Shown here: piece after piece, positions 6,585 through 34,879 of the stretch | How the letters are laid out: every line of letters begins with the position of its first letter | Position numbering within the stretch: the first letter of the stretch is position 1 | Origin: Saprospiraceae bacterium | Lineage (GTDB): Bacteria; Bacteroidota; Bacteroidia; Chitinophagales; Saprospiraceae | Assembly: GCA_020847915.1 (NCBI GenBank) | Contig: JADLBE010000002.1 | Span: 1-36,558 of the forward strand | Direction of reading: 5' to 3' | Length of the DNA: 36,558 nt | Notes under the pieces: generated by a model | The model's database searches: none | Told to the model about the DNA's origin: nothing | What the model saw: the letters and a program-made list of their open reading frames with translations, nothing else | Made by a program: the position numbers and the translations under genes

Positions 6585-6640
6585 TTCAGTGTTCGGTGTT
6601 CGGAGTTTGAAGTTTGTAGTTCGGAGGTTTTTGAATGGGA
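6585..6640. repeat. Period-7 array (GTTCGGT/GTTCGGA/GTTTGAA/GTTTGTA)
   Basis: Direct reading of 7-nt phasing. Confidence 0.6.
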
Positions 6641-8754: not shown

Positions 8755-8763
8755 AATACAGTC

Positions 8764-8828
8764 ATCAGTCAACAGTCGACAGTCAACAGTTTTTTAACTG
8801 AGGACTGTCGACTGGCGACTGTCGACTT
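8764..8828. repeat. Inverted period-7 arrays (AGTCAAC/AGTCGAC) forming a hairpin between tuf and tRNA-Trp
   Basis: AGTCAACAGTCGACAGTCAACAGTTTTTTAACTGAGGACTGTCGACTGGCGACTGTCGACT. Confidence 0.8.
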
Positions 8829-10445: not shown

Positions 10446-10563
10446 TCAGTCGGTTAGTCTGTTAGTCAGTTGGTCGGTTAGTCAAAAAAAGTATGACTAA
10501 CCGACCAACTGACTAACCGACCAACCGACTAACCGACCAACCGACTAACCGACCAACAGACCA
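10446..10563. repeat. Inverted period-8 arrays (GTTAGTCN/GTTGGTCG and CTAACCGA/CCAACCGA) between rplK and rplA
   Basis: CAGTCGGTTAGTCTGTTAGTCAGTTGGTCGGTTAGTCAAAAAAAGTATGACTAACCGACCAACTGACTAACCGACC... Confidence 0.85.
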
Positions 10564-10614
10564 AACAAGGGAGTTCCGCCCAACGGAACGTTTAACCTTA
10601 AATAGTATTTTTCA

Positions 10615-22693: not shown

Positions 22694-22749
22694 ACAGAAT
22701 ATCGAATTTCGAACAGGGAATATCGAACTCCGAACTCCGAACTCCGAAC
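22632..22749. repeat. 23-bp perfect inverted repeat (TTCCCTGTTCGAAATTCGATATT) followed by period-7 CGAACTC array
   Basis: 22632-22654 and 22698-22720 exact reverse complements; then ATCGAACTCCGAACTCCGAACTCCGAACTC. Confidence 0.88.
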
Positions 22750-24060
22750 TCATTTCACCCAGTACCCCCAATCAAACAAGTGCCCCCAAATCCACACCAT
22801 TTTAGACCAGTTCCAGCGCCAGTCTGCGCCATCCCACGGTCCTGGCAGGTAGGTGTACAGCATTGACATTTGTACGCTGTAATACAGGAAAAACACCCAC
22901 ACCACCGTTAATCCCCACCGCCAAACCGAAGGCGCGTTAACCATTTTTTCCAAAACAAACGCCGTTGGCAGTGCGCCGAGGGCAAACAACTCGATGTAGC
23001 TGCGGTGCCCGAACGCGCCGCCGAACCACCATGCCCACCAACTGGCAAAAATGTAGGTCGCAAGCAAAAATACCGCTGCGAGCACCGGCGCCTGTACACG
23101 TTGGTCGCGCCGGCCCCATACCAGTCCAACAGGAATGAGCAGCGCAAGCGGGGAATACACAAACAGCCCGTTTTGGCTGTCGAACAACACCTCAAGGATT
23201 TTGGGCGCTTTCCAATAAATGAACCCTTCGTCGGTATAAGAGTAGCGCATCCAGTGGCCGGTCATTTCAAACCAGTACCACATTTGGGGTATAAAAAACA
23301 AAAAAGCTACCAGGGCTGCAACGATCAGTCTGGGGATGTTTTGCAAAAGCAACGTCAAACGAGCCCGCAAATCATGCCAGCTGTATATGCCGTAAAAGGC
23401 TACTAACAACACTGCCAGGATGTTGGTCGGACGTATAAGTACGATCCAGCCCATGGCGCCGCCCATCAACAAAGCGTTTTTCCAGGATAAGTTTTCCCAA
23501 AAACGCGGCGTGTGCCACAGTAAAAACGCAAACAGGAAAAATGAGTACACGTGCGACATGCCCGGCTCCTTCGTGGCGTAATGAAACAGGTTGGTGCCCA
23601 GAAATACCGTGAGCAAGGTGTAGGCCGATACGCGCCGACTAAAATGCCGCAACAACGTTTTTTGCAAAAAAAACAACCCCAAAAAGGTGATCAGGTAGCC
23701 TGTCCAAGCCACCGCACGGCCATAGGAATTGTGGTACAGGTCGCTGCGATCTATACCGCGCAAATCGTTTTGCAAACGCGCAACAAGAAAAAGTGGCAAA
23801 TTAAAAAACGCTACGCCACAGGTGTATTTCACCACCATTTCACCCTTTTCGTTTTTGATGGGCCACATGCTGCCCGGCGGAATGGCGTGCACATCACCCA
23901 GGGTCAATACACCCGGGAGGTACACGAAATACCCTTCAGCGTCGGACCAGATTACGCCGCGCGGATTTTTAAGGGAACGCTGCTGCAAAAACGGCAGGAA
24001 AGCAACCAGCAACAACAAGAGGTAATATCGCTTTGCGAAATCGGTAATTTTTTGCTTCAT
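22750..24060 (-). CDS. Polytopic membrane protein, possibly a GT39/ArnT-like glycosyltransferase
   Basis: About 10 hydrophobic segments; WSDAEGYFVYLP, GWIVLIRPTNILAVLL motifs. Confidence 0.6.
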   Translation of the reverse strand: MKQKITDFAKRYYLLLLLVAFLPFLQQRSLKNPRGVIWSDAEGYFVYLPGVLTLGDVHAIPPGSMWPIKNEKGEMVVKYTCGVAFFNLPLFLVARLQNDLRGIDRSDLYHNSYGRAVAWTGYLITFLGLFFLQKTLLRHFSRRVSAYTLLTVFLGTNLFHYATKEPGMSHVYSFFLFAFLLWHTPRFWENLSWKNALLMGGAMGWIVLIRPTNILAVLLVAFYGIYSWHDLRARLTLLLQNIPRLIVAALVAFLFFIPQMWYWFEMTGHWMRYSYTDEGFIYWKAPKILEVLFDSQNGLFVYSPLALLIPVGLVWGRRDQRVQAPVLAAVFLLATYIFASWWAWWFGGAFGHRSYIELFALGALPTAFVLEKMVNAPSVWRWGLTVVWVFFLYYSVQMSMLYTYLPGPWDGADWRWNWSKMVWIWGHLFDWGYWVK

Positions 24061-24083: not shown

Positions 24084-27000
24084 TTACCGCACCAGCGTCA
24101 CATCCCCATCAATCACTTTGGTAGTTCCGTCGGCCAGTTTTATTTTCAGGTAATACACAAACACACCGGGGTTCACGTCCTTGTCTGCTGTTTTGCCATC
24201 CCAGCCCGGCCACTCGTTGGGCGGCAGCGGATTGTCCCAGAGGTACAACTTGTCGCCCCAGCGGTCGAAAATGGCCACTTCCTGAAGTTCCACCACACTC
24301 GATCCGGCATTTACCAGAAATATGTCTTCCAAACCGTCGTCGTTTGGACTAAAAACGTTGGGTACATAAATGTCGGCCCTTTGTTCCACCACGATGCGCA
24401 TTTCGTCGGTAGCCTCGCAACCCGTCGTATCCACCAGTATGGCTGTAAGCGTCAGGTTTTCAAAGGGTTGGAATTCCTGAACCGGACAACCTGCACAGGC
24501 AGGGTCGGGTAGGGGCGACCAAATAAGGGTATCGTAACTTGCGATGTTGATCAGGGCCTCTACACTGATGGTTTCTCCAAGTACCACCACGGCATCGGGC
24601 GGCAAAACAACCTGTGGTACGGGTGGCAGGTTCACCGCAATGATTGTATCGTAAATACAACCGTTGGCATCCTGCACACTTACGGTGTTAGAACCGTCGC
24701 CCAAAGCGAGGTTGTTGCCCGACTGTTGCTGGTTGTTTACAAAAACATTCAAAGGTGGTACGCCGCCTGAAAAAGTGGCCTGTCCGCCAAGTGTCTCGTC
24801 GCCGCACATGGGCACATCAACAACCACTTCAAGGGCCAAAGCAGGTGGCGCGGTAGCCTCGGCGTTGCCACTGCCGGTACAACCGTTTACATCGCTGATG
24901 GTAACGCTGTACATGCCGGCCCCGATGCCGGTAAGGGTGGATGCCGTTCCACCGGTGTTCCAGAGGTAATTGTAGGGCGCAGTTCCACCGCTCACCACGC
25001 TGCCCACCGTTCCATTCACATCATCTGCACAAGCAAGGGTAAAACCGTTGTGGATGTTGACGGCATTTACGGTCACGTTCAGTCCGGGTAAAACTGCCAG
25101 GGTAAACGGAAGGGTGGTACTCAAACCAATGGCGTCGGTAAGCGTGATGATGTAGGAGCCGGAAGTTAGTCCTGTTTCGGTTGTGGGCATGTTTAAAGCA
25201 GCAATGGTGTCGCTTCCACCAGACCAGGCATACTGAATCGGAACTTGTCCGCCGGTGATTGTGAGGGTAAAGCTGCCGTTGGAGGCGCCGCCGCAGGAAG
25301 GCGGCGTGCCGGTAAGTTGTGCTGTCGGCGCACAGGCAACCGGGTCGAAGGCTACAAGGGTGATGATGACGGAATCGCAACCGAACTGGTTGGTCAGGTT
25401 TTGGACGAACGAGCCTGCCTGGGTCGGATCGCAGGTGCTTTGAAAAAGATTGATCGTATCGGAAAGCAGCAGGCTAACCGTTGTGATGACCGTAGAATCG
25501 CAACCGAACTGATTGAAGAGGTTTTGGGTAAACGTGCCAGCCTGGGTCGGGTCGCAGGTGGTAGAACTCAACGAGGTCATATCGGATGGCAACAACGTTA
25601 CGGTGGTAACAACCGTCGAATCGCAGCCGAACTGGTTGGTCAAATTTTGGATAAACGTACCCGATTGTGTTGGATCGCAGGTGGTCGCGCTGAGGGTGAC
25701 CACATCGGACGGTAACAAAGTCACGATGTTGATCACCAGTGAATCGCACCCGTCGGAGCCGGCGAGCAGGGTTTGGCTGGTGCCGGCCTGGGTGGGGTCG
25801 CAGGTGGTGCCGCTCAGCAACGTGGTATCGATGAGTGTGGGATCAAAAGTTACGGTGGTGATGACCGTTGAATCGCAGCCGAACATGTTTGTCAGCACCT
25901 GAACAAAGGAACCCGTATTGGTTGGGTCGCAGGTGGTGGTACTTAAAGAAACGGTATCGGAAGGTAAAAGTGTTATGGTGCTGATCACCAGCGAATCGCA
26001 GCCGTCGGAACTTGTAAGTAAGGTTTGTGTTGTTCCAACCTGCGCCGGGTTACAAGTTGTACCTGTCAGCAGCGTTGTATCGATGTTTGCAGGATCGAAG
26101 GTTATGGTGGTGATCACCGTAGAATCGCAACCGAACTGGTTGGTGAGGTTTTGGGTAAAAGTGCCTGCGTTGTTCGGGTTGCATGTGGTTGCACTGAACA
26201 GCACCGTGTCGGAAGGCAATAGGGTGATGACACTGATCACCAGCGAATCGCACCCATCGGCGCCGGTGAGCAGGGTTTGGCTGGTGCCAGCCTGAGCGGG
26301 AATACACGTTGTGCCGTTCAGCAGGGTGGTATCCACAGCTGCGGGATCAAAGGTAATTACCGTGACAACCGTAGAGTCGCAACCGAACTGGTTGGTGAGG
26401 ATCTGGGTAAACGTTCCTGCGTTGTTGGGGTTGCAGGTAAGGTTGTTGAGCTGGATGGTATCTGGTTGGTTTACGACCACAAGGATGGACGCGGTATCGG
26501 GACAAGAGGTGAGGTCGCTGACGATCACGCTGTACATCGTATTTACCAGGGGAGCGACGGTGTTGGAATCGACTGTTAATCCGGTGTTCCAGAAGTAAAG
26601 GCTGCCGCCTGAAGCCACGAGTGTCGTGTTGTTTCCGGCACAAATGGTGTCTGTTCCTGAGATGGTTGCCTGGAGTTGGGGGGTAACATCAACCAGGACG
26701 GTTGACGAAGATGAACAACCGTTGACGGAGGTTACGGTTACCGTGTAGGATGTACTTGTGTCCGGAGCAATCGGATAGGCCGGAGTTGCCGGTCCGCCTT
26801 GCCATTGGTACGCATTGCCTCCGGAGGCCAGCAGGGTCGTGCTTTGTCCGGCGCATAGGGCCAAATCGCCGCCGATGGATACCGTCGGTGAGGTGAGCAT
26901 CAAGAGGTTGAAACTGATGGTCGGACCTGTACAAGTGCCCAGGGTGGGTGTAGCGGTAACCGTAGACACGCCTGATCCTGTGGCGGTAAAACTGATGTTG

Positions 27001-29306
27001 CCGTTGCCCGAAGCCGGAAGACCGGTGATTGGGTTGTTGTTGGTCCAGTTTACCGTCGAACCGGGCGAAGTGTTGAAATTGACGGTAATGGTATCCCCGG
27101 TACAACCCGATTGATCGGGCACGGTGGCAAGTGTGGGCGATGAGGAAACGGTGATGGTAAATGTTTGTGGTATCCCGCTGCAAATTCCGCTTTGTGGTGT
27201 TACCGTGATGGTGGCCGTTTGTGTTCCGCCGGGCGCCAAACCCGTAAAATTGATGTTACCGGTGCCTGCAACGGCCAGGCCGATGAGGGGGTTGCTGTTG
27301 GTCCAGGAATACGTCGGACTGCCCGAAGGAGCGCTGAACACCACCGAAATGGTGTCGCCCGCACAGGCCGCCTGGTTTGCTGGCGCATTCATGCTGGCTC
27401 CCGGCGTAATGGTTATTGTAAAGGTTTCCTGACTGCCCGGACAACCGCCGAAAGAGGGTGTTACCACCACCTGGGCTGTGCCGTTTCCTGTGGCTACAAA
27501 GTTGATGGGATTGGAGCTGCCTGACGCGGCCAGACCAATGGACGGATTTAAATTGACCCAATTGTAGGTTGCTCCCGGTGTGCCTGAAAATGGCACGTTG
27601 ATGGTTTGGCCAATACAACCCAAAACGTCGCTTACGGGGTTTACAGTGGGGGATGCCGATACCGTGACGGTAAAAATTTCTGGGGTACCGGGACAGGTTC
27701 CCAAAATGGGCGTAACCACGATGGTCCCCGATTGTGAACCCGATGGACTGGTGGCCACGAAATCGATGTTGCCCGAGCCCAGGGAGGCCAAACCGATGTT
27801 TGGGTTGTTGTTGGTCCAGTTGAAGGTAGCGCCTGGTGTGCCGTCGATGGTGATTTCGACTTGTTCGCCATTGCAAGCGGCAATATTGGTCAGGTCATTA
27901 ACTACAGGGGTGGGGTTTACCGTGATGGTGTAGGTACGCGGTATGCCGCTGCAAATGCCCAACATGGGTGTTACCGTGATGGTGGCTACTTCCTGCATGG
28001 TGACGGTGGCTGAAGGAAAATTCAAACCTCCTGTACCTGCAGCAGGCAGACCAATGGCCGGATTGTCGTTGGTCCAGGAAAACGTTGCGCCAGGTGTTCC
28101 GGTGAAATTCTGCATGATGGTGATGCCACCACACACCGTGATGTTTACCGGTTGGTTGACGTTCGGCAGAGGATTTACGGTGATGGTAAACGATTGCGCC
28201 GGACCCGTACACGGCGCCTCTACAGGGGTAATGGTGATGGTGCCGGTTTGAACGGAGGCAACATTGGCCGCCGTGAAGTCCAGATCACCGGTACCTGAAG
28301 CCGGTAAACCGATGGCCGGATTGGAGTTGGTCCAGTTGAACACCGGATTGCCTGTGCTGGTGAAAACAACCATCACATCGTCGCCGGAGCATACGTTTTC
28401 GTTGGCGGGATCGTCCATCACTGGTCCCGGGTTCACGGTAATCATAAACGTAACCGGCGGGCCATCGCAGCCACCCTGGGAAGGCGTTACGGTGATGGTA
28501 GCTGTTTCGGTGGCTGTTACGTTGGCGGCCGGGAAACTGATGTTGCCCGAGCCCGAAGCACCGAGCCCGATGGCTGTGTTGTCGTTGGTCCAGGAAAACG
28601 TTGCGCCAGCCGAGCCGGTGAAAGTAACAGTGCCTGTTTGTCCGCCGCAAAGGGGTAAATCGGCGGGAGGGTTAACCAGAGGAACATCACCGGTAACAAG
28701 CACATTGTCGAACCAATAGGTTTCAGCAGCGGCTTTGTTGGCAAGCCTGATCCGGATTTCAAGCGTGTTTCCGGTCAAACCTGCGGCCGTAAACGTGCCT
28801 GCGCCTCCGCCACAGAGGTAGCCGAACTGCACCCATGCTCCGCCGTCTATACGGTATTCGGCATGTATTTGGTCGTGACCGTTGTCGATGGCAACATTTC
28901 CGGTGCAACCGTAAAACGGTCCACCAGGAGTACATTCAAAAGTACCGATGGAACCGTAGGAAACAGAAATACCGACATTACACGCGCCGTTGATGTCGAT
29001 GGGGTTGGTGATCCATTCGTTGTCGTTGCCGCCACCGGCAGGGCAACATGGGGCGCCTTCCATGTCGATAACTTCATAACGGCCATTTTGTACGCCGTTG
29101 AAAGAACCCGCCGTCATGTCGCAATCGGTGAAATTGGCATCGCTCCAACCCTGGTTTGCGCCAGAGAAATCTTCTAGCCAGATGGTTTGAGCCTGGAGCG
29201 CCGGCAGGTTTAGCCAGGACAGGGGTGTCGCAAAAAACGGTACAAGGAGTAATGCAATGAGGGACTGGCGTGAAATGCAGGCCAGGTGGCAGTAATTCCG
29301 TTTCAT
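24084..29306 (-). CDS. Giant multi-repeat secreted or surface protein with gliding-motility-associated C-terminal (T9SS type B) domain
   Basis: Signal peptide MKRNYCHLACISRQSLIALLLVPFF..LQAQ; C-term IYVPNVFSPNDDGLEDIF...VAIFDRWGDKLYLWDNP...GWDGKTADKDVNPGVFVYYLKIKLADG; start trimmed from 29468. Confidence 0.92.
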   Translation of the reverse strand: MKRNYCHLACISRQSLIALLLVPFFATPLSWLNLPALQAQTIWLEDFSGANQGWSDANFTDCDMTAGSFNGVQNGRYEVIDMEGAPCCPAGGGNDNEWITNPIDINGACNVGISVSYGSIGTFECTPGGPFYGCTGNVAIDNGHDQIHAEYRIDGGAWVQFGYLCGGGAGTFTAAGLTGNTLEIRIRLANKAAAETYWFDNVLVTGDVPLVNPPADLPLCGGQTGTVTFTGSAGATFSWTNDNTAIGLGASGSGNISFPAANVTATETATITVTPSQGGCDGPPVTFMITVNPGPVMDDPANENVCSGDDVMVVFTSTGNPVFNWTNSNPAIGLPASGTGDLDFTAANVASVQTGTITITPVEAPCTGPAQSFTITVNPLPNVNQPVNITVCGGITIMQNFTGTPGATFSWTNDNPAIGLPAAGTGGLNFPSATVTMQEVATITVTPMLGICSGIPRTYTITVNPTPVVNDLTNIAACNGEQVEITIDGTPGATFNWTNNNPNIGLASLGSGNIDFVATSPSGSQSGTIVVTPILGTCPGTPEIFTVTVSASPTVNPVSDVLGCIGQTINVPFSGTPGATYNWVNLNPSIGLAASGSSNPINFVATGNGTAQVVVTPSFGGCPGSQETFTITITPGASMNAPANQAACAGDTISVVFSAPSGSPTYSWTNSNPLIGLAVAGTGNINFTGLAPGGTQTATITVTPQSGICSGIPQTFTITVSSSPTLATVPDQSGCTGDTITVNFNTSPGSTVNWTNNNPITGLPASGNGNISFTATGSGVSTVTATPTLGTCTGPTISFNLLMLTSPTVSIGGDLALCAGQSTTLLASGGNAYQWQGGPATPAYPIAPDTSTSYTVTVTSVNGCSSSSTVLVDVTPQLQATISGTDTICAGNNTTLVASGGSLYFWNTGLTVDSNTVAPLVNTMYSVIVSDLTSCPDTASILVVVNQPDTIQLNNLTCNPNNAGTFTQILTNQFGCDSTVVTVITFDPAAVDTTLLNGTTCIPAQAGTSQTLLTGADGCDSLVISVITLLPSDTVLFSATTCNPNNAGTFTQNLTNQFGCDSTVITTITFDPANIDTTLLTGTTCNPAQVGTTQTLLTSSDGCDSLVISTITLLPSDTVSLSTTTCDPTNTGSFVQVLTNMFGCDSTVITTVTFDPTLIDTTLLSGTTCDPTQAGTSQTLLAGSDGCDSLVINIVTLLPSDVVTLSATTCDPTQSGTFIQNLTNQFGCDSTVVTTVTLLPSDMTSLSSTTCDPTQAGTFTQNLFNQFGCDSTVITTVSLLLSDTINLFQSTCDPTQAGSFVQNLTNQFGCDSVIITLVAFDPVACAPTAQLTGTPPSCGGASNGSFTLTITGGQVPIQYAWSGGSDTIAALNMPTTETGLTSGSYIITLTDAIGLSTTLPFTLAVLPGLNVTVNAVNIHNGFTLACADDVNGTVGSVVSGGTAPYNYLWNTGGTASTLTGIGAGMYSVTISDVNGCTGSGNAEATAPPALALEVVVDVPMCGDETLGGQATFSGGVPPLNVFVNNQQQSGNNLALGDGSNTVSVQDANGCIYDTIIAVNLPPVPQVVLPPDAVVVLGETISVEALINIASYDTLIWSPLPDPACAGCPVQEFQPFENLTLTAILVDTTGCEATDEMRIVVEQRADIYVPNVFSPNDDGLEDIFLVNAGSSVVELQEVAIFDRWGDKLYLWDNPLPPNEWPGWDGKTADKDVNPGVFVYYLKIKLADGTTKVIDGDVTLVR

Positions 29307-29363
29307 ACAATAGAATAATAATTGCAGGCAGACCATGCAATTGGCTCGGAGAATTAAAAGAAA

Positions 29364-29371
29364 CAAAGGTA
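29364..29371 (-). promoter_or_regulatory. TACCTTTG -7-like box upstream of the T9SS type B gene
   Basis: CAAAGGTA on the plus strand. Confidence 0.5.
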
Positions 29372-29484
29372 CACACCAAATACCTACACACACTTCACCA
29401 CACGTTAAATAACGATTACTTTCCTTTTGCCGGCGTCCTGCAAAACCAGAAACAAACAGGTTCGTCATTTTTTCGTTGCAAGGC

Positions 29485-30802: not shown

Positions 30803-30930
30803 CCTGACCAACCGACCAACCGACCAACCGACTAACCGACCAACCTGACCAACCTGACCAACCGACTAACCGACCAACCTGACCAACCTGACCAACCGAC
30901 TAACCGACTAACCGACTAACCGACTAACAG
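30803..30930. repeat. Tandem array of ACCAACCG/ACTAACCG/ACCAACCTG units
   Basis: Direct reading; same family as 10446-10563. Confidence 0.88.
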
Positions 30931-30934
30931 ACCA

Positions 30935-33511
30935 ATGATCATAAACCGTTTCCCCGACTTCAACCCCAACGCGCCGCTGCTCGAACGGCCGGAAAACCTG
31001 CAATCGTACAATCTTTCATTGGCAAAAACGATGCTCGACGAGGTACGTTCCGGCGGCGATGCCGCCGTTCGCCGTTTTGCCGGACGTTTTGACGGACCCT
31101 TGGCCGATGTGCCGCTCGAGGTATCGGCTGCCGAAATCACTGCCGCGATCGCAAAACTGCCGCACGAACTCAAAACCGCCATCCGCCAGGCGTACGACAA
31201 CATCCGGAAGTTCCACCTCAGTCAGCGCGAATCCGTGACGGTGGTGGAAACCATGCCGGGTGTGTCGTGCTGGCGGCGCAGTACACCCATCGACAAGGTG
31301 GGTTTGTACGTGCCCGGCGGTTCCGCGCCGCTTTTTTCTACGGCACTGATGCTGGGTGTGCCGGCCCAAATTGCAGGTTGTGAAGAAGTCATCATGTGCT
31401 CGCCGGAACAGGGCGATTTGCTTCCGCACCCCGCCGTATTGTACGCTGCATCGCTTTGTGGCATCACCCGTATTTTCCGTATTGGCGGCGTACAGGCCAT
31501 CGGAGCGATGGCGTACGGCACGGAAAGTGTACCAAAAGTGTGGAAAATCTTTGGTCCGGGAAACAAGTGGGTCACCGCCGCGAAACAACTCGTGAGCATC
31601 GACGGCGTGGCCATCGACATGGTGGCCGGTCCGTCGGAAGTGGCCGTAATTGCCGACGCCAGCGCCAATCCCGCTGTGGTGGCCGCCGACCTGCTCAGTC
31701 AGGCCGAGCACGGCTCCGACAGCCAGGTGTTGCTGCTGTGCACCGAAGAAAACCTGCTTCAGGCCATACTATCCGAACTCGACCGCCAACTTGCCGTACT
31801 TCCCCGCCGGGAAATGGCCAGTGCAGCTTTGCAAAAAAGCAACGCTATTTTGGTGAACACCACCACCGAAGCCATGGCCTGGGCAAACGCCTACGCCCCC
31901 GAACACCTGATCATTCAAACAGCAGATGCCGCCCAACTTGCATTGCAGGTGCGCAACGCAGGTTCGGTATTCCTCGGCCACCTCACCCCCGAAAGCGCGG
32001 GCGACTACGCTTCCGGCACCAACCACACCCTGCCCACGGGCGGCTATGCCCGCTCGGGTGCCGGCGTGTCGCTCGACAGCTTCGTAAAAAAAATAACCTT
32101 CCAGGAAATTACCCCGGAAGGCCTCGAAAACCTGGCACAAACCGTAACCACCATGGCCCGCGCGGAAGAACTGGAAGCGCACGCCAGAGCCATTGAAGTT
32201 CGGAGTTCGGAGTTCGGAGTTCGGAGGGCGGAGAGTGTAGGGGCGCCCCTTGCGGGTGCCCGTGATGCGGCCGGCGCCCTTGATGCGCCCGGCGAGCCCA
32301 ATTCCGCCGCCCACGATGCGTTAATTGAAGGTCTGATTCGGGAAAACATCCGTTCGTTAAAGCCGTACAGCTCTGCGCGCGATGAGTTTAAAACAGCAGG
32401 TAAGGACAATACGGAACTTCTTGCAAATGTGAATCCGGCCGACGAAATGGCGCCTTTGCAGACCAAAGGGCACCCGCAAGGGGCGCCCCTACAGACTCCG
32501 GACTTCGGACAGATCCTCGGCCTGGCCGGGATCACAACTCCGAACTCCGAACTCCAAACTCCGAACTTAATTTTCCTCGACGCCAACGAGAATAGTCTCG
32601 CCCATCCCTGGAACCGCTACCCCGACGCCCGGCAGCGGGAGATGAAACAAGCTGTGGGCAAACTGAAAGGTGTGGCGCCGAACCAGATTTTCCTGGGCAA
32701 CGGCAGCGACGAAGCCATTGACCTTTTGATGCGCGCTTTTGTGGAACCGGGCAAAGACAACATTATTTTGATGCCACCCACCTACGGCATGTACGCCGTA
32801 CAGGCAGGCATCCACGGTGCGTCCGTGCGCAAAGCGCCGCTCCGGGCTGAGTTTTCACCCGACATGGGAGCGTTGCGGCAGGAAACGGACGAAAACTCCA
32901 AACTGCTGTTCGTTTGTTCGCCCAACAACCCCAGCGGCAACCGTATACCCGATCCTTTCATCGAGGACGTGTTGGAATTTTTCCCCGGACTGGTGGTGGT
33001 GGATGAGGCGTACATTGATTTTTCAGACAAACCCTCCTGGCTCACACGGCTGAACCAACACCCAAGACTGGTGGTTTTGCAAACGTTTTCCAAAGCGTGG
33101 GGACTGGCGGGTTTGCGGCTCGGCATGGCCTTCGCGCACCCGAAAGTGATTGAGGTTTTGGATAAAATCAAATACCCCTACAACCTCAGCAGTGCCAACA
33201 TCGGTTTGTTGTACGAGGCTTTGGGTAAACAAGATGTGGTGGAAGAACAGGTAAAAACGCTGATTGCAGAGCGCCGCCGTCTGGAAACCGAATTGCCCAG
33301 GCTGTCCGTGGTGGAAAAAGTGTTTCCCAGCGACGCCAATTTTTTGCTGGTGCGTGTAAAAGATGCCGCTAAAATTTACCAATATTTAATCGAAAAAGGC
33401 ATTGTGGTACGCCGCCGCGATGGCGAACTTCACTGCGAACATTGTTTGCGTTTTACGGTGGGAACGCCGGAAGAAAATGAACGTTTGTTGGCGGCTTTAC
33501 ACGACGTTTGA
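30935..33511 (+). CDS. hisD-hisC: Fused histidinol dehydrogenase - histidinol-phosphate aminotransferase
   Basis: HisD: GPGNKWVTAAKQLV, DMVAGPSEVAVIAD, EHGSDSQ, LPTGGYARSGAGVS; HisC: IRENIRSLKPYSSARDEF, FLDANEN, NGSDEAIDLLMRAF, FVCSPNNPSGN, VVDEAYIDF, FSKAWGLAGLRLG. Confidence 0.93.
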   Translation: MIINRFPDFNPNAPLLERPENLQSYNLSLAKTMLDEVRSGGDAAVRRFAGRFDGPLADVPLEVSAAEITAAIAKLPHELKTAIRQAYDNIRKFHLSQRESVTVVETMPGVSCWRRSTPIDKVGLYVPGGSAPLFSTALMLGVPAQIAGCEEVIMCSPEQGDLLPHPAVLYAASLCGITRIFRIGGVQAIGAMAYGTESVPKVWKIFGPGNKWVTAAKQLVSIDGVAIDMVAGPSEVAVIADASANPAVVAADLLSQAEHGSDSQVLLLCTEENLLQAILSELDRQLAVLPRREMASAALQKSNAILVNTTTEAMAWANAYAPEHLIIQTADAAQLALQVRNAGSVFLGHLTPESAGDYASGTNHTLPTGGYARSGAGVSLDSFVKKITFQEITPEGLENLAQTVTTMARAEELEAHARAIEVRSSEFGVRRAESVGAPLAGARDAAGALDAPGEPNSAAHDALIEGLIRENIRSLKPYSSARDEFKTAGKDNTELLANVNPADEMAPLQTKGHPQGAPLQTPDFGQILGLAGITTPNSELQTPNLIFLDANENSLAHPWNRYPDARQREMKQAVGKLKGVAPNQIFLGNGSDEAIDLLMRAFVEPGKDNIILMPPTYGMYAVQAGIHGASVRKAPLRAEFSPDMGALRQETDENSKLLFVCSPNNPSGNRIPDPFIEDVLEFFPGLVVVDEAYIDFSDKPSWLTRLNQHPRLVVLQTFSKAWGLAGLRLGMAFAHPKVIEVLDKIKYPYNLSSANIGLLYEALGKQDVVEEQVKTLIAERRRLETELPRLSVVEKVFPSDANFLLVRVKDAAKIYQYLIEKGIVVRRRDGELHCEHCLRFTVGTPEENERLLAALHDV
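32196..32568. repeat. Inverted repeat arms embedded in the hisDC ORF (TTCGGAG heptamers + GTAGGGGCGCCCCTTGCGGGTGCCC)
   Basis: 32237-32261 and 32468-32492 exact 25-nt reverse complements; (TTCGGAG)n at 32196-32226 mirrored by (CGAACTC)n at 32536-32568. Confidence 0.92.
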
Positions 33512-34788: not shown

Positions 34789-34797
34789 GCGGTTAGC

Positions 34798-34879
34798 GGG
34801 CAGCAGGCAGCAGGCAGCGAAAACCCACCAGGGTATCATTGCCACCGCAGCCTGCTGCCTGCTGCCTACTGCCTGCTGA
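34798..34879. repeat. Inverted period-7 GGCAGCA / CTGCCTG arrays between hisB and hisH
   Basis: GGGCAGCAGGCAGCAGGCAGC ... GCCTGCTGCCTGCTGCCTACTGCCTGCTG. Confidence 0.88.

Follow-up and report, generated by a model that had tools for sequence, protein, structure and literature searches.

In-frame palindromic repeats in a hisD-hisC fusion gene and in other protein-coding genes of Saprospiraceae

Introduction

GTAG-REPs have been reported in Proteobacteria, Cyanobacteria, Chloroflexi and the PVC group, and Bacteroidota are not listed among their hosts (Di Nocera et al. 2013, PMC3733652). Some of these repeats reside inside open reading frames, where they give rise to inserts of 20 to 82 aa, and in two Xanthomonas species they occupy about the same site of recB. 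According to the same paper, REPtrons can be missing. The Rickettsia palindromic elements (RPE) comprise few sequence families, and those considered in PMC3733652 carry a CGTC tag. TAACTGA heptamers have been described in Beggiatoaceae, Cyanobacteria and some Bacteroidetes (MacGregor 2015, PMC4679880). They involve a single unit, the repeats of which are direct (with one indirect exception in the genome described there) and mostly immediately precede start codons. Coding palindromes have also been found in the mitochondria of Nematomorpha, where both arms encode conserved protein (PMC6649704).

Here, we describe a hisD-hisC fusion gene of an uncultured Saprospiraceae bacterium in which a nested inverted repeat is read in frame. 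The window analyzed (36,558 nucleotides) is an entire contig of a 5.2-Mb draft genome with 534 contigs. This genome (G000) was the only one of its species in our comparison; G and L numbers denote the other genomes and loci.

Results

As the original prediction had claimed, the window contains a single open reading frame that joins HisD to HisC, and its 858 codons are free of stops. The features of the fusion gene and of the repeats are as follows:

30935..33511, + strand: hisD-hisC fusion ORF, 858 aa, no internal stop, codon-usage gene call score 223
30935..32203, + strand: HisD domain (aa 1-423; PF00815, TIGR00069)
32197..32226, + strand: left heptamer array (AGTTCGG)4.3, starting where the relatives' hisD stops and extending into the linker
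32204..32332, + strand: interdomain linker (aa 424-466), first part repeat-derived, no in-frame ATG/GTG/TTG, pLDDT <50 over most of its length
32237..32261, + strand: left 25-mer, GTAG-REP-like (GTAG plus 8-bp stem with 5-nt loop; exact match, fold)
32333..32389, + strand: conserved HisC N-terminal segment LIRENIRSLKPYSSARDEF (aa 467-485), between the repeat arms, confident in the model
32390..32569, + strand: HisC loop insert (aa 486-545), loop of 67 aa vs 12-18 in homologues, mostly low pLDDT
32468..32492, - strand: right 25-mer, reverse complement of the left one (exact match), encoding GHPQGAP
32536..32567, - strand: right heptamer array, (AACTCCG)4.6 on the coding strand, adjoining the FLDANEN core
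32570..33508, + strand: HisC catalytic core (aa 546-858; profile matches)
22724..22751, + strand: AACTCCG-type heptamer array, intergenic, adjoining the 3' end of the gene 22750-24060(-)

In profile searches, the HisD part matched PF00815 at aa 26-423 (E 4e-162) as well as TIGR00069, and the HisC part matched PF00155 at aa 550-855 and TIGR01141 (E 3e-100). Both domains are complete within one reading frame, which is what defines a HisD-HisC fusion. Between aa 407, which is located inside HisD, and aa 499, which lies past SSARDEF, there is no in-frame ATG, GTG or TTG. Since aa 408-498 do not offer a start codon, HisC carrying its N-terminal segment can only be made as a fusion, barring an unusual start. 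When we searched the genome for a second intact hisC, none was found. Most likely, the product is a bifunctional HisDC enzyme that works and in which the repeats encode two disordered stretches; we infer that the fusion is expressed and active. Our literature search for hisD-hisC fusions in Bacteroidota did not find one named in PMC8305728.

For structural modeling we used AlphaFold on the linker plus HisC with 45 homologues. The HisC core and the N-terminal segment were modeled with high confidence, and confidence was low in the linker (model residues 11-38) and in the larger part of the insert (about 75-134). A Foldseek search with this model matched HisC structures. For a tolerated insertion one would expect just such a picture, with the N-terminal segment docked and a disordered stretch on either side of it.

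The original prediction was right about the positions of the heptamer arrays and of the 25-nt inverted pair, which is exact. The 25-mer at 32237-32261 (GTAGGGGCGCCCCTTGCGGGTGCCC) is separated by 206 nt from its reverse complement. Arrays and 25-mers form a nested inverted repeat, the outer arms of which (31 nt) are 97% and the inner arms (43 nt) 86% complementary, and this structure, located in the linker and in a surface loop of HisC, encloses the HisC N-terminal segment. RNA folding of positions 32190-32575 gave -205.4 kcal/mol vs -137.7 ± 6.5 for shuffled sequences (z -10.5), so the long mRNA hairpin that had been proposed is strongly predicted as a very stable fold. The claim of a long HisC insert was also borne out, but the loop contains some 50-55 extra residues and not about 60. 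Of two heptamer arrays said to lie outside genes, the one at 22724-22751 is perfect, but that near 6598-6626 is degenerate. An additional 8-nt array (GACCAACC/GACTAACC, about 16 copies) occupies window positions 30806-30935 and extends up to the start codon of hisD; beside it, we saw no inverted partner.

Allowing up to one mismatch, we located the 22-nt core of this 25-mer at 65 places of the genome and its backward control at none, which means that the element is repeated far beyond chance. With up to two mismatches, the complete 25-mer was found at 75 places in the window genome and at 12 in its relatives (7, 4 and 1 in three of them, none in the rest). Most copies are intergenic, and many are arranged as inverted pairs with the GTAG end pointing outward and about 50 to 430 nt between them. 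In the predicted fold (-15.9 kcal/mol), GTAG remains unpaired beside an 8-bp stem with a 5-nt loop. Thus, the 25-mer has the properties of a GTAG-REP: the GTAG motif next to a short stem-loop, high copy number, dispersed and mostly extragenic location, and inverted dimers. We searched the genome for a transposase carrying the 25-mer and found none. The draft genome contains two Y1 transposase genes (PF01797), and neither has a 25-mer nearby at up to seven mismatches, as would be expected of a flanked RAYT. At L249:1098-2273, a Y1 transposase gene is located between inverted arms of about 150 nt that consist of other palindromic repeats, an arrangement that is TIRtron-like.

Exact AACTCCG arrays gave 40 matches in the window genome and 0 in 41 other genomes of the genus. 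CCACCGT arrays were found 125 times in G041 and 41 times in G025 and were lacking in the window genome, and CCACCCT arrays occurred 14 times in G015 and once in G014. For an array census we sampled 534 kb of the window genome, 400 kb of G028 and 321 kb of G041, and genes were called by a purpose-written codon-usage script. In the sample of the window genome there were 111 arrays of period 7 or 8, with 94 being intergenic, 8 at gene edges and 9 inside genes. Outside genes, 60 of 102 arrays start within 8 nt of a gene end (14.5 expected for random placement in the same gaps), and for 70 of the 102 the nearest gene boundary is a 3' end. A same-unit inverted partner within 600 nt was present for 58 of the 111 arrays vs 12.6 with shuffled units. 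Examples of arrays at gene ends, often as inverted pairs, can be seen in the window at 957-990/1030-1089, 8758-8827, 10448-10564 and 34795-34878. Between the two heptamer arms of the first of these, at 991-1029, a bidirectional terminator-like hairpin separates convergent genes, and the unit variants of the arms are mirrored over 33 nt. Also in the window, a 1794-aa ORF on the minus strand (24084-29468) contains internal repeats of 123, 252 and 258 nt.

The arrays have a polarity. When the unit is read away from the adjoining gene, G exceeds C in 58 cases in the window genome, equals it in 8 and falls below it in 1; the corresponding numbers for G041 are 31, 5 and 1. By analogy, this geometry would be like that of telomeres fused head to head. 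The hisDC pair fits the array rules if the HisD end and the FLDANEN edge of HisC count as gene ends. Of 35 variable pairs, 12 had arms in which the order of unit variants was mirrored (p ≤ 0.05 for each of them), and the hisDC pair was uninformative in this respect. Because of this mirroring, at least some arms were probably copied from one another, and independent addition of one unit to both arms is weakened as a general explanation. In 17 of 18 in-gene cases the unit lacks a stop. The 400 kb of G028 (L209-L228) contain only 7 arrays of period 7-8, one of them in the HisC loop, which hints that in-gene arrays may outlast intergenic ones.

In about 125 HisC homologues across Bacteroidota, the loop between SARDEF and DANEN comprises 12-18 residues. 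Longer loops were found in the window (67), G041 (46), G015 (30), G028 (23) and G025, the contig of which terminates inside the array, and every one of them is a period-7 array. The units are AACTCCG, CCACCGT and CCACCCT and differ between lineages. In the sister genomes G015 and G028, the loop differs by 7 aa, which equals 21 nt or three heptamers. Parsimony on the HisD+HisC tree requires at least three changes; an AU test does not reject a single clade of the five HisC arrays (p 0.18), and therefore the independent origin of the arrays rests mainly on the differing units. Within the genus, hisD and hisC are as a rule separate neighbors with a stop between them, and the window genome carries the sole fusion among the loci examined. 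In other genera of the family (L181, L192, L203, L207), fusions with a plain linker free of repeats were observed. Fusion is thus recurrent and not tied to repeats, and the idea that the repeats caused the HisD-HisC fusion is weakened.

By following the other AACTCCG sites of the window genome, we found arrays in the genes for two further conserved proteins, a lipoyl ligase and an OppC-type permease. The former, which has a lipoyl ligase A/B catalytic domain and judging from its motifs would be LipB, contains an inverted pair between DYTGVWV and KICAIG. All 40 genomes of the genus that were surveyed keep this loop in frame, and its length is mostly 27-60 nt. Period-7 inverted arrays with different units occupy it in the window genome (159 nt), G023 (150), G032 (132) and G005 (93); G014 (51 nt) seemingly retains a short remnant, and G040 (111 nt) has another palindrome. 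The insertion-hotspot pattern thus repeats beyond HisC, in a gene picked solely because it holds an AACTCCG array. Besides the HisC loop, the one between DYTGVWV and KICAIG is a site at which period-7 palindromes recur within the genus (L257:1062-1169; L274, L275, L276, L280, L288). The OppC-type permease has four REP-like copies and an AACTCCG array ahead of FPLGTD, and its insert shares the peptide GHPQGAPLQTP with that of HisC; none of the 13 relatives surveyed had the OppC insert. Further arrays of the window genome are located in a UvrD-type helicase and form C-terminal tails. In G041, HisB, encoded just downstream of the array-bearing hisC, has a 33-aa array flanked by the two IGPD halves, which in an alignment correspond to residues 4-96 and 98-196 of 6fwh. 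Arrays also interrupt TsaB and PEP carboxylase (PEPC) of this genome, the latter as an in-gene inverted pair; coordinates of its in-gene arrays are L229:11650-11752, L239:19482-19546 and L248:9100-9303. Taken together, in-frame insertion affects unrelated proteins in both genomes (HisDC, OppC, LipB and UvrD in the window genome; HisB, HisC, TsaB and PEPC in G041).

Discussion

Our data are best explained if palindromic repeats belonging to the genome itself have colonized length-tolerant loops, in frame and neutrally, and if the fusion is a working HisDC enzyme; we assign this reading a probability of about 0.8. Private units read in frame at the same loops in several species, and missing from most relatives, can be taken directly from the sequences; the order of events and the generating mechanism are what we infer. 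The genome carries a large and apparently still spreading stock of palindromic repeats, consisting of inverted heptamer pairs and GTAG-REP-like hairpins. These elements would saturate the intergenic space right up to the gene ends, with selection acting as the filter. AACTCCG, CCACCGT and CCACCCT are stop-free in every phase on both strands, so an array is translated into low-complexity peptide without interruption, and seven codons correspond exactly to three heptamers. For these two reasons, arrays would be tolerated in coding DNA wherever the protein bears extra length. At the hisD-hisC locus, a compound pair (array plus REP, followed by the inverted REP and array) now makes up much of the linker and of the SSARDEF-FLDANEN loop, with the HisC N-terminal segment retained between the arms. 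The inserts are probably passengers of presumably neutral effect.

That noncoding repeats had turned into linker and insert with the frame intact was the core of the original prediction, and two observations uphold it: both repeat types are mainly intergenic in this genome, and relatives show short loops or other repeats at the same HisC site. We also looked among the relatives for the same insert made of non-repeat sequence and did not find it. In-frame capture of repeats is real, but what had appeared as a single accident is one of many cases.

The very stable predicted fold could also point to regulation. In this case, the coding hairpin would have been selected because the stem in the hisDC message adjusts how well its HisC part is translated or how stable it is, and the inserts would have been kept for this purpose. 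The arms are inverted, as in the intergenic arrays, and the inserts of LipB, PEPC and HisB contain inverted pairs too. We consider this explanation unlikely, however, since in the other lineages with HisC arrays the interval between hisD and hisC contains no inverted counterpart of the array, so that the hairpin is not what recurs there. Moreover, HisD and HisC form one protein, which leaves little for differential translation to act on, and the targets are functionally unrelated.

That inserts recur at the same loops of HisC and LipB might instead reflect a selected function of the insert at the protein level, for instance as flexible tether, partner site or protease site. This appears still less probable, as the insert peptides of different species are unrelated (TTPNSELQTPNL, RRPSTVHRPPSTV, LTLHPPPSTF), most species lack the insert, and it was predicted with the low confidence that would be typical of disorder. 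An artefact, in which two ordinary genes were joined by a misassembled repeat, has to be considered for a fragmented repeat-rich draft, because short-read assemblies break at repeats, as in G025. We regard it as very improbable: the ORF is open over 858 codons and HisC has no start of its own, arrays in the same loop are present in well-assembled genomes (G015 with 7 contigs, G028 with 9), and no genome surveyed has a LipB loop that is out of frame.

Neutral colonization of tolerant loops leaves the question which machinery makes species-private heptamer palindromes of fixed polarity. Tentatively, a so far undescribed DNA process might be at work in these Saprospiraceae; it would make species-private 7-8 nt arrays beside genes, often inverted and with the G-rich strand nearly always directed away from the gene (as if telomere-like ends were joined head to head), and would repeatedly drive them into essential enzymes, at the same loops that tolerate a change in length. 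This is a possibility to which we give limited credence. If it holds true, the array-making process would continually supply new protein segments. Loops of housekeeping enzymes that hold different repeats in several lineages can serve as a natural map of length-tolerant sites, and they provide recent cases of noncoding DNA turning into protein.

Among the described systems, GTAG-REPs resemble the 25-mer in its GTAG motif, stem and loop and in its dispersed inverted pairs, mostly outside genes. Here, however, the REP is joined with heptamer arrays and the two Y1 transposase genes are not flanked by it. With RPE, our elements share the in-frame location of palindromic noncoding-type DNA in unrelated, including essential, proteins, but the Saprospiraceae units are many, tandem and species-private, and the 25-mer is tagged by GTAG instead of CGTC. 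The TAACTGA repeats are likewise heptamer arrays, mainly intergenic near genes, with some overlapping or inside ORFs. In contrast to them, at least 30 units were present per genome sample, about half of the arrays form inverted pairs, and they are mostly located at gene 3' ends; the unit at the hisDC locus is AACTCCG. As in Nematomorpha, long inverted repeats lie within coding sequence, but the hisDC arms encode a low-complexity insert. Both the insertion of palindromes in frame (RPE, intragenic REP) and the occurrence of heptamer arrays within ORFs (TAACTGA) have been described before. In the open-access literature searched, we did not find many private units combined with fixed-polarity inverted pairs at genes and repeated loop use. 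Relative to RPE, REP and TAACTGA, what is new is the multitude of species-private units and the recurrence of their target loops.
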